NCBI GenBank assembly: GCA_944323535.1
Contig: CALUSW010000015.1
Location: 1-33,209 of the forward strand
DNA length: 33,209 nucleotides
DNA from: Candidatus Gastranaerophilales bacterium
GTDB taxonomy: Bacteria; Cyanobacteriota; Vampirovibrionia; Gastranaerophilales; Gastranaerophilaceae
Direction: 5' to 3'
Positions 27,582-33,007 of the stretch are shown here, piece by piece (the stretch's first letter is position 1; the number at the start of each line of letters is the position of its first letter). Below the pieces are notes generated by a model, which saw only the letters and a list, made by a program, of their open reading frames with translations, had not been told where the DNA came from and did no database searches. A program made the position numbers and the translations under genes.

Positions 27582-28493
27582 TTAAATACCGTATTCCGAC
27601 AATGTTTTATATAATTTGGGAGTTACAAGTTTCCAGACTTTTGCATTCGGATGTCCGTCCGGCAGCAAATATTGTTGTTCCTTAAGATTATATCCGTAAT
27701 CTTCTTTTATTCTGACGATTATAATATTTTCTTTTTCCAAATCTTTTGCAATTTCTTCAAAAATCGGCGATTCAAAATATACCAAAATTATAAATTTTGT
27801 ATTTTCAAAATTTTTATCTATATATTGTTTCATTTGAATAAAGTGTTGTTTTAATAATAATTTTAAATGATTTCGGTATTGTTTATTATTATTCTTAAAA
27901 TATTCAAATGTTTTTTCACGCAGCAAAGAAAGCGAAGAAAAACGTGAAATAACAAAAGGTCTTGTCTTTAAAGTTAATTTTCCGTTATCAAGTTTATATA
28001 ATATTTCGGTTGTTTCAAACATCATATTAGGCATAATCATTCTAAGAATGTGAAAATCTGCATAAGTATATATAAAAACGGCAGGTTTCTGTTTTATATT
28101 TTGTGAAATGATACCCGATTCAAGCAAAAACAAAGTATGATTAAGCCCCCAGCCTAATGAAGCAAAATTATATACGGGATTTTTCATAAGTTCGGATAAT
28201 CCGTACGATAATATTTCTTCTTCCTTCAGTCCTTCTCCATATATAAAAGAACATCCGGTAAGGATTATGGATTTAAGATTATTTTGTTCATTTAACGGTT
28301 TTCTGTGCGGCGATAAGTTGAGAACATAATCTCTGGCAGCATTAATACTGCCAAGTTTTTTTGTCATATTTTGAAAATAACTTATATCGCAGCCAAGAGC
28401 AGTTGTTTGTTTACAAAATACGCAATAGTCAATTATGAAAAACAAGCTTATAGCTATAAACAGGTTTATTGCCAATAATTTTATGATTTTCAT
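27582..28493 (-). CDS. SGNH-hydrolase-like membrane-anchored protein
   Basis: The 303 residues start with a signal anchor (about 6-25). SGNH-type blocks are visible: IILTGCSFIYGEG with Ser82 in place of the nucleophile (GCS instead of GDS), YNFASLGWGLNHT (about 109-121), and LPDGHPNAKVW with Asp279 and His281. This is the pattern of esterase or acetyltransferase partners of sugar O-acetylation. It lies 6 bases after adeC in the minus-strand module that includes AlgI- and AlgJ-like genes. The product probably acts outside the membrane on an acylated glycan; the substrate is unknown. Confidence 0.65.
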   Translation of the reverse strand: MKIIKLLAINLFIAISLFFIIDYCVFCKQTTALGCDISYFQNMTKKLGSINAARDYVLNLSPHRKPLNEQNNLKSIILTGCSFIYGEGLKEEEILSYGLSELMKNPVYNFASLGWGLNHTLFLLESGIISQNIKQKPAVFIYTYADFHILRMIMPNMMFETTEILYKLDNGKLTLKTRPFVISRFSSLSLLREKTFEYFKNNNKQYRNHLKLLLKQHFIQMKQYIDKNFENTKFIILVYFESPIFEEIAKDLEKENIIIVRIKEDYGYNLKEQQYLLPDGHPNAKVWKLVTPKLYKTLSEYGI

Positions 28494-30243: not shown

Positions 30244-31200
30244 TTAAAATCTGAAATATATAAACGGATTATATGTTGATGCCGCTATTGAGGCGGAAGA
30301 TATAACAAATAATATTAACAGCCATAAATTAATTATTGCTCTGCCGAATTTATTTTCAATCTGCAGCATTTTATTAAATAAAGGCACAGAACATAATACG
30401 GCCGCAATAAGGGCAATAACCTCAAAAGTATCGATATAATAAGGAAGAGCATATGATATTGCAGGCACTTTAATATCAATGCAGCCGAACATATTTTTTA
30501 AATATGTCCATGCATATGTCATATTATCGGATCTGAACATTACCCAGCCTAAAACAAATATAAATATTGTATAAAGATGTTTCAGTATATTAATAAATTT
30601 ATTATCAGTTTCTTTATGCCAGCCTGTCATCTTCTCGATTATTATGAAAAATCCGTTCCATAATCCCCAGAAAACAAAGTTCCAGCTTGCGCCATGCCAG
30701 ATGCCCGTCAGCAAAAACACAATAAACAGATTTATATAAGTTCTGTTTTTCCCGTTTCTGTTACCGCCCAGAGGTATATAAACATATTGTTTAAACCAGG
30801 TTGATAATGAAATATGCCATCTTCGCCAGAATTCCGTAATAGATTTTGAGATATACGGATAATTAAAATTCTCAAGAAAATTAAACCCGAAAATTAACCC
30901 GAGTCCAATTGCCATGTCAGAATATCCCGAAAAATCAAAAAACAACTGAAATGAATAACATAAAGCCCCGAGCCAGGCAATTAAAGGAGAAAAACTATCG
31001 GCAGGCTGCACGAAAATTTTATCTGCTACGGCACCAAGAGTATTTGCTATAAGCACTTTTTTTGAAAGTCCGATTATAAAACGCTTAACACCTAAAACAA
31101 CTTTTTCAAAATTAACTTCTCTATTGTCAATTTGATCTTCTACATCATGATATTTTATGATTGGTCCGGCTACCAGCTGGGGAAATAGACATATAAACAA
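30244..31200 (-). CDS. C-terminal part of an AlgI-like MBOAT O-acyltransferase
   Basis: These 318 residues match the second two thirds of AlgI/DltB-type membrane O-acyltransferases. They contain LFPQLVAGPI at the start, FWRRWHISLSTWFKQYVYIP, and the catalytic histidine in LLTGIWHGASW (about 171), with about eight membrane segments. The TTG at 31200 is only a nominal start with no ribosome binding site. The reading frame continues in phase upstream through seven sense codons to a TAA (31222-31224) and then the N-terminal part. With that codon read as sense the enzyme would be 466 residues, normal for AlgI. Confidence 0.85.
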   Translation of the reverse strand: MFICLFPQLVAGPIIKYHDVEDQIDNREVNFEKVVLGVKRFIIGLSKKVLIANTLGAVADKIFVQPADSFSPLIAWLGALCYSFQLFFDFSGYSDMAIGLGLIFGFNFLENFNYPYISKSITEFWRRWHISLSTWFKQYVYIPLGGNRNGKNRTYINLFIVFLLTGIWHGASWNFVFWGLWNGFFIIIEKMTGWHKETDNKFINILKHLYTIFIFVLGWVMFRSDNMTYAWTYLKNMFGCIDIKVPAISYALPYYIDTFEVIALIAAVLCSVPLFNKMLQIENKFGRAIINLWLLILFVISSASIAASTYNPFIYFRF

Positions 31201-31221
31201 TGCAAGTTTATATATATCTTT

Positions 31222-31644
31222 TTAAGCCTTAACTTCTCCTCTGAAAACATCCGCTATATATGATATTGCCTGAAATGTATAAAAAGATATACCTATCGGC
31301 ATTATTATATTTAAAGGTTTTACACTGCAATGAAGCAATGAATTCATATTATCAATAATAAAATTAAAATATTTGAAATATACAAGAAAACTTAAATTTG
31401 CAATAACAGTTAATACCAGCGCGGTTTTTTTGTATTTTTGAGTTTTTTCTATTAATATGGCGCCTATGTAGTTAATCAATATAGTCAAAATCATTATGGC
31501 AAGATATCTCGGTTCTCCCCAGGCATAAAAAATAATACTTGCTATAAGCAGAATAGGATTATGCAGCTCCTTCTTTGCAAGAAGGTAAATTAAACATACA
31601 ATCGGAAGAAACATATATAAAAAAGTCATTGAACTGAACAGCAT
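31222..31644 (-). CDS. N-terminal part of an AlgI-like MBOAT O-acyltransferase, cut by TAA
   Basis: The 140 residues match the first third of AlgI: MLFSSMTFLYMFLPI, then IIFYAWGEPRYL, and GISFYTFQAISYIADVFRGE. In full-length relatives the next residues usually run on from the equivalent of EVKAQ. Here the codon after EVKA is TAA, and the frame then resumes with KDIYKLALFIC. AAGGAG precedes the ATG at 31644, 3 bases after the DHHW gene. As written the enzyme is split; a CAA-to-TAA change (Gln to stop), readthrough, or a sequence error would explain it. Confidence 0.85.
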   Translation of the reverse strand: MLFSSMTFLYMFLPIVCLIYLLAKKELHNPILLIASIIFYAWGEPRYLAIMILTILINYIGAILIEKTQKYKKTALVLTVIANLSFLVYFKYFNFIIDNMNSLLHCSVKPLNIIMPIGISFYTFQAISYIADVFRGEVKA

Positions 31645-31647
31645 TTA

Positions 31648-32757
31648 TTACTCCTTAGAAAACAGATTATATTGATACTTAATTTCAACATAGGGAATAC
31701 AATATATTATAATGTCAGGTTTATAATCAAGAATTTCTTTTTTATAATATTTTATATATTTCAATTTTACTTTTCCTTCCACAAGCCGCATTCTGATTGT
31801 ATTTTTAAAGCTGAAAGGAATAAATTCGCCTAAATTTTCATTCTGGCTTGTTCCCAGCATTATTACCTTTAAATCAGTACCGTCAGAATAATAAAAAATT
31901 TTCTTTCTTCTGGGCGATTTTATTATTGTTTTTCTTCTCAAATTCTTTGATTGTTTATGCTTATAATATCGATAGTTTACATTATGATATTTTTTATGAA
32001 AGTATTTTGGAATATGAATGCTATTGCAAGTTGTACCATATCTGAAACGTCTGTCAAAACCACCTCTTATCTTTTCGTCATAAAAATATGTATAATCATC
32101 TTGTGTCAATACTTTTACTTGTGGAAAATCTTTTTTTATTTCTTTCATAAGTTCTTTATAACCCGTAAAAGCCCCGTCATCAGTCCAGTGGTGTTCTGTC
32201 TTGAAGAATACAAAGTTATTTTTAGACTCGGCTTTTAATTCATTATATGGATATATTACCTTAAGTTCATTTTTATTATTTATATCACTTATAAATGACA
32301 AGAATTTGTTGTGATTATTATCTTTTATCTTATATAATTTATTGTCCGGAACATAAATATCTGATTTTTGCGGTGTTATTAAAATATATAGTTTAATATT
32401 ATTACTTTTACAGAAATTATTTAGCCTTACTAAATATTTAAAATTACTTTTAATAATATTCATGTCAAAATGTGTAAATTCCCAGTCCATATATAAAAAA
32501 CCGGTACTGTTATCTATATATCCTTTTACGGCTTTACGATTTATAACAAATTTTATGAACTTATTTAATTCTATAAAATGTTCTCTTAAATTAAACCTGT
32601 CAGAGAACCAGCTGTCGTAATTTTTGCCGAAATTATAATTTATTTTTCCTTTATTTATCAAAGGTTTATATACTGCAAGCCGCCTGTTTTCAGCAGCACT
32701 TCTTTCCGCTTTGTTTATTTTACTCATAGGGATAAACAAAAGTACAAAAAATATCAA
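31648..32757 (-). CDS. DHHW/AlgJ-like SGNH-fold protein, main part (frame interrupted upstream)
   Basis: Members of this AlgJ/AlgX/DHHW group work with AlgI to pass acetyl groups to exported polysaccharide. Visible are a membrane segment at the start, the ENRRLA motif (about 23-28), the region YILITPQKSDIYV, and TEHHWTDDGAF (about 191-201), the family's DHHW with Glu for Asp. The listed TTG start at 32757 has no ribosome binding site and lies inside a membrane helix. The same frame is open back to 32919 through another membrane helix, ending at a run of ten C. With nine C it joins a start at 33007 to give 452 residues. Confidence 0.75.
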   Translation of the reverse strand: MIFFVLLFIPMSKINKAERSAAENRRLAVYKPLINKGKINYNFGKNYDSWFSDRFNLREHFIELNKFIKFVINRKAVKGYIDNSTGFLYMDWEFTHFDMNIIKSNFKYLVRLNNFCKSNNIKLYILITPQKSDIYVPDNKLYKIKDNNHNKFLSFISDINNKNELKVIYPYNELKAESKNNFVFFKTEHHWTDDGAFTGYKELMKEIKKDFPQVKVLTQDDYTYFYDEKIRGGFDRRFRYGTTCNSIHIPKYFHKKYHNVNYRYYKHKQSKNLRRKTIIKSPRRKKIFYYSDGTDLKVIMLGTSQNENLGEFIPFSFKNTIRMRLVEGKVKLKYIKYYKKEILDYKPDIIIYCIPYVEIKYQYNLFSKE

Positions 32758-32875
32758 AAGAAATATAATATCTATTCTTGATTGTTTTTCTATATTTTTA
32801 AAATCAGCAAGATAAGCAGTTATTTTTAATGCAATTAAAAAACTGACAACACCTATTGTTACTATTATGAGAAAG

Positions 32876-33007
32876 TCAATATGTCCAAAAACGAATGGGG
32901 GGGGGGATTTTTGCAGTTAAATCTTTTAAATACCAGAAATTTTTAGCTGCCGCAATACATATTGCAGCTATCAAAAAACTTATAATATACCTTTTTCGGA
33001 TAGTCAT
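32876..33007 (-). pseudogene. Separated 5' end of the DHHW/AlgJ-like gene
   Basis: ATG at 33007 begins MTIRKRYIISFLIAAICIAA, a membrane anchor, and reads to Ile34 just before ten C. As written the frame then ends after 43 codons at TGA (32878-32876). Losing one C (or gaining two) puts it in phase with the rest of the gene. A purine-rich AAAGAGAG lies upstream of the ATG. This is either a phase-variable off state, a decaying gene, or a homopolymer sequencing error. Confidence 0.6.
32897..32906 (-). repeat. Ten-base C homopolymer inside the DHHW/AlgJ-like gene
   Basis: Ten consecutive C on the coding strand lie in a region that is otherwise strongly A+T-rich. Such tracts change length readily by slipped-strand replication. 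It lies at codons 34-38 of the gene, a typical place for an on/off switch. Confidence 0.85.

Follow-up and report, generated by a model that had tools for sequence, protein, structure and literature searches.

Phase variation by simple repeats has become known mainly through mucosal bacteria that can be cultured, both pathogens and commensals, among them Campylobacter, Helicobacter, and Neisseria; the α-1,3-fucosyltransferases of Helicobacter pylori are phase-variable, for example. Separately, the pairing of an acyltransferase gene with an adjoining MBOAT gene is known from patA/patB and algI/algJ. In the contingency loci of Campylobacter, poly-G/C tracts of 9 and 10 dominate (53 and 26%, respectively), lie in coding sequences for surface structures, occur in mixed ON and OFF states, and vary greatly in number among species (PMC6321876). 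PglI of Neisseria meningitidis is an O-acetyltransferase of a surface glycan that undergoes phase variation within hosts (PMC5445459). Both the slipped-strand mechanism and a phase-variable O-acetyltransferase are already known.

Here, we analyzed a stretch of 33,209 nucleotides (hereafter the window) from a bacterium of the Gastranaerophilales, gut-dwelling relatives of cyanobacteria that do not photosynthesize, which NCBI taxonomy lists as an order in the Cyanobacteriota/Melainabacteria group. Our reading, to which we assign a probability of about 0.82, is that a gene for a PatB/AlgJ-like SGNH O-acyltransferase in this window contains a slipped-strand contingency tract, namely a run of ten C residues, and that this locus is part of a large poly-C/G phasome widespread in the Gastranaerophilaceae. 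The tracts of this lineage share with those of Campylobacter the dominance of lengths 9 and 10, the location in coding sequences for surface structures, the mixture of ON and OFF states, and the widely differing counts among species. However, they occur in a distant phylum, and their per-genome maxima are 119 for the genus and 176 for the family versus 5-81 tracts in Campylobacter (PMC6321876), with cut-offs of at least nine here and at least seven there, and with some of our runs possibly outside genes. The likeness to PglI lies in phase variation of an O-acetyltransferase whose substrate is a surface glycan, which for the window protein is predicted from its family. Whereas the target of PglI is a pilin/protein glycan (PMC5445459), the window protein belongs to the PatB/AlgJ-like SGNH type, which is partnered by an MBOAT enzyme.

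Results

A homopolymeric tract separates the start of the gene from its catalytic part

A run of ten G residues on the plus strand of the window (positions 32,897-32,906), which corresponds to C10 on the coding minus strand, lies within coding sequence, between the first and second membrane segments of the encoded protein and between the start codon and the catalytic part. Its presence is far beyond chance, because 0.003 C10/G10 runs are expected in the window under a first-order Markov model. In a scan of the whole window, which has a G + C content of 32%, all remaining C/G runs were shorter than six. The 5′ part of the gene (32,907-33,007, minus strand) begins with an ATG at position 33,007 and encodes MTIRKRYIISFLIAAICIAAAKNFWYLKDLTAK, i.e. 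33 codons before the tract with one hydrophobic segment. Upstream of this ATG, GAAAGAGAG is a possible ribosome-binding site. The frame opened by the ATG meets a stop 10 codons past the tract, and a second frame extends without interruption over 415 codons between the tract and the stop at 31,648. The two parts fuse at run lengths divisible by three (9 or 12) to give a protein of 452 aa, with one predicted membrane segment before the tract and two after. Tract length therefore sets the frame of a gene whose downstream part is open and conserved, and the assembled allele is OFF. These results agree with an initial annotation of the window, which had described a membrane-anchored start put out of frame by the tract and a 452-residue protein with three membrane segments restored by nine or twelve C; its count of 34 codons for the start is corrected here to 33.

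The downstream part encodes a probable SGNH O-acyltransferase

The 3′ part of the gene (31,648-32,896, minus strand), which is out of frame at C10, comprises two membrane segments followed by an SGNH/DHHW/AlgX-type O-acyltransferase domain. Pfam identifies DHHW (4.7e-12) and ALGX (1.6e-11), both above cut-off. A profile built from 13 relatives and compared with solved structures matches PatB1 (1.6e-20) and AlgJ (3.7e-7), as well as AlgX. The 416-residue part encoded in the window itself was modeled with AlphaFold; the model has a mean pLDDT of 85 and displays helices at residues 9-35 and 40-59; its best Foldseek matches are PatB1, a DHHW protein, AlgJ, and AlgX. The E-x-H-W motif is at residues 235-238 and the serine of the GTS motif at residue 351 (416-aa numbering, alignment A1). 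His237 and Ser351 are invariant across 32 sequences, and the first position of E-x-H-W is either D or E in the relatives. All of the 44 positions that are invariant in 12 relatives are retained in the window protein, which argues that it was functional until recently. The family profile and fold, the catalytic Ser and Asp/Glu-x-His, and the adjoining MBOAT gene all fit this class, and the 3′ part is thus probably a PatB1/AlgJ/DHHW-type SGNH O-acyltransferase with intact catalytic motifs, in line with the DHHW/AlgJ-like identity proposed initially.

The window protein resembles PatB1 of Bacillus cereus and AlgJ/AlgX of Pseudomonas in its profile and Foldseek matches and in having an MBOAT gene alongside, but it shares only ∼16% identity with them over the aligned fold and has three predicted membrane segments. 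Most of its relatives (e.g. L015, L016, and L020) harbor a module of ∼125 aa that follows the first membrane segment and precedes the tract; the window gene lacks it, a difference that counts against the contingency reading. Elsewhere in the window (27,582-28,493), a 303-aa protein displays an SGNH-like GCSFIYGEG motif, and a protein with a similar motif in genome G049 (L153) contains a C9 tract.

The neighboring algI-like gene carries an in-frame stop

Directly downstream lies an algI-like gene (30,244-31,644, minus strand) encoding an MBOAT O-acyltransferase, the usual partner, as assessed by Pfam (MBOAT, 2.4e-35, in the 3′ part) and by alignment with 13 relatives. Codon 141 of this gene is an in-frame TAA (ochre) at 31,222-31,224, coordinates that follow the listed end of the ORF, at a site where 13 of 13 relatives have Gln. 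The gene is therefore broken, as had been noted initially, by a single substitution within one frame, which rules out a frameshift as the cause; no homopolymer is involved. It nevertheless retains 155 of 159 invariant positions, the stop itself being counted among the misses. The operon as assembled is doubly off, and this copy may currently be silent irrespective of the state of the tract.

The presence of two independent inactivating lesions in adjoining genes is what would be seen in a decaying operon, in which ordinary gene loss had produced first one and then the other of the C run and the algI stop, and the tract switches nothing useful. The same genome also has two further MBOAT genes, both open, on contig C3. 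We nonetheless consider such decay unlikely. Retention of 44/44 and 155/159 invariant positions indicates that both genes were under selection until recently, so that any decay would have to be very recent. Moreover, a nonsense codon in algI could be tolerated during an OFF state of the switch. The stop may mark a silent copy or a nonsense codon gathered while the switch was OFF.

Homologues carry tracts in both frame states

In the genus, 15 homologues of the acyltransferase gene contain a tract, nine being in frame and six out of frame, whereas all 16 homologues without a tract are open (Fisher p = 0.007, a value that is indicative only because the homologues are related sequences). ON and OFF states therefore both occur at homologous tracts, these being homologues and paralogues rather than alleles of one species. 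The position and base of the tract vary: a C tract is located at -8 in the window gene, at -70 to -79 in the largest group, where it sits at the end of the ∼125-aa module missing from the window gene, and elsewhere at -272, and a G tract is located at -114. In relatives outside the genus (L055, L056, L064, L067, and L075), G tracts are found elsewhere in the gene, with uncertain and possibly misbinned assignments. These varied sites and the use of either base suggest repeated origin, which within one gene family is hard to account for without selection. In genome G003 (G003:C3:66578-75766, L207), a tandem array contains five acyltransferase copies, four of which have C9 or C10 in mixed frame states.

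These data also bear on the quality of the assembly. Ten-base homopolymers are error-prone, and the tract lies 303 bases from a contig end in a fragmented metagenome assembly of 121 contigs. The length of the run, and possibly the algI stop too, might therefore be a sequencing or assembly error in a gene that is really intact and has a fixed tract length. We find this quite improbable. A miscount by one would still leave a C/G run of ∼10 matching the lineage-wide pattern, and the algI stop is a substitution rather than a homopolymer change. In addition, 6/15 out-of-frame genes among tract-bearing homologues from many assemblies is high for error, with 0/16 broken among those without a tract.

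Long homopolymers can make polymerase or ribosome slip. Some full-length protein could on this basis be made constitutively, if the C run induced programmed frameshifting by the ribosome or slippage during transcription. Tracts at the same place in homologues, however, have lengths of 8-10 and are in frame as well as out of frame by different offsets, so that no single recoding event would serve them all; this makes recoding very improbable. A search for RNA elements near the tract, limited to the curated Rfam library, matched no family in the stretch.

Poly-C/G tracts are abundant across the lineage

We extended the analysis to the genus, represented by 41 genomes with one genome per species, using counts from sequence searches and from stretches that were read. 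By chance alone, longer runs would be far rarer than shorter ones. Summed over the 41 genomes, there are 1,132 C/G runs of at least nine versus 74 of exactly seven. The window's own genome has runs of at least eight at five places, with lengths of 10-12, and none of exactly seven. The distribution of lengths is two-peaked in the deduplicated stretches, with 78, 4, 0, 3, 57, 39, and 9 runs of 5, 6, 7, 8, 9, 10, and 11, respectively; since these stretches were mostly picked for holding long runs, the gap at 6-8 alone is free of selection bias. Lengths 9 and 10 account for 57 and 39 of the 108 runs of at least eight. The C10 of the window fits the tracts of its lineage well, and random decay poorly.

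The count was also made for the order, over 146 genomes: those from the window's family (G083, which has the maximum, G088, G078, G058, and others) have 0-176 runs of at least nine per genome, whereas other families have at most six. Within the genus, the maximum is 119 in G041, whose genome is 96% complete. Tract length also differs between near-duplicates. In two neighboring membrane-protein genes of G049 (L208:4497 and 8123; G049:C3), which are identical over the 200 bases that follow the tract and 90% identical in the part that precedes it, one has C9 and is in frame for 888 codons, and the other has C10 and is out of frame, with a stop after 11. Such differences could partly reflect assembly error.

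Two technical or general causes were considered for the tracts as a whole. Loss of mismatch repair is not a general explanation, because most genomes of the genus have the repair genes: mutS is above cut-off in 39/41 genomes and mutL in 37/41, including many that are tract-rich. G041, the tract-richest genome of the genus, has a mutS match and no mutL match; it is the only well-covered genome of which this is true, a single case, and most other tract-rich genomes have both. A poly-G artefact of two-colour sequencing was ruled out, because the tracts used are internal and flanked on either side by homologous coding sequence. Very long C runs at the start of, or within, some contigs (G013:C108:1-32, G019:C60, and similar contig ends) could be true assembly-breaking tracts or poly-G read artefacts.

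Many of the tracts lie in genes for surface structures

Among 95 tracts read in four genomes, 67 are in or at a possible frame of at least 100 aa. The most frequent families are prepilin N-terminal methylation (13), DUF6613 (six), and ALGX/DHHW (five). GT2, NAD-dependent epimerase, and ATP-grasp occur twice each, and acyltransferase 3, FkbM methyltransferase, UbiA, and others once. A search for other long C/G runs in surface genes, the check called for in the initial annotation, thus uncovered them in pilin-like, glycosyltransferase, epimerase, and acyltransferase genes.

The pilin-like genes of G041 form a multigene family (L183-L201 and L211-L214, e.g. L198:1319-2090, L192, L193, and L195) with a near-constant leader, composed of a ribosome-binding site, an ATG, about eight codons, and G9-G11, followed by a mature part that is in or out of frame. 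The prepilin-like N terminus is FTLAEVLITLVVIGIIAAITVPV. The start is in frame in about 4 of the 17 rows listed. From its sequence organization, this family looks like a phase-variable pilin-like repertoire.

In the window's own genome, one tract is associated with a GT2 frame of only 112 codons, the start of which is out of frame. In a GT10 fucosyltransferase-like gene that immediately follows clpP (L010:2343-3369; G000:C10:27359), a G10 lies at the start or just ahead of it; this gene, as a candidate only, resembles the phase-variable fucosyltransferases of H. pylori. Another tract follows a TupA-like ATP-grasp frame, near a 349-aa protein, and a further one lies between an FMN-reductase-like gene (named by eye) and an α/β hydrolase. 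The total of only five tracts in this species, including that ahead of the short GT2 frame, is the kind of picture that decay would leave, and the phasome there may be shrinking.

Discussion

The initial annotation had recognized in the window the structure of a phase-variable contingency locus. This proposal is supported by the mixed frames of homologues, the excess of runs of 9-11, the occurrence of tracts in surface genes, and the differences in length between near-duplicates. After comparison of the genomes, sequencing error and simple decay have become less likely.

If the C10 is such a tract, replication slippage would add or drop C residues in the window species as well. With one length class in three, the gene would be ON, its catalytic part being read in frame with the membrane-anchored start; with the remaining two it would be OFF, yielding a short nonfunctional peptide. 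When the gene is ON, as predicted from the protein families, the acyltransferase and its algI-like MBOAT partner would acetylate a glycan of the surface or cell wall, with the MBOAT partner delivering acetyl groups and the acyltransferase transferring them to the glycan. Changes in tract length would then make this modification differ from cell to cell, presumably to the benefit of the bacterium in its host.

On a wider scale, it is likely that the Gastranaerophilaceae have among the largest poly-C/G phase-variation repertoires known, with up to 176 tracts of at least nine in a 2-Mb genome, spanning pilin-like families, glycan synthesis, and glycan O-acetylation; that the O-acyltransferase family gained tracts several times; and that the window locus is one such switch. 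What is new is the lineage in which the tracts are found, how large their repertoire is, and that they have appeared repeatedly within a single acyltransferase family. The use of this mechanism in the lineage appears unreported: in a literature search that covered few subscription journals, we found no papers on phase variation in Gastranaerophilales or Melainabacteria.

If this reading is correct, a repertoire equal to or larger than those of known systems exists in an uncultured, non-pathogenic gut order, which would mean that the strategy serves gut colonization in general. It would also provide many loci at which available gut metagenome reads would allow a direct count of ON and OFF states, and many annotations in Gastranaerophilaceae genomes would seem broken for a reason other than decay.
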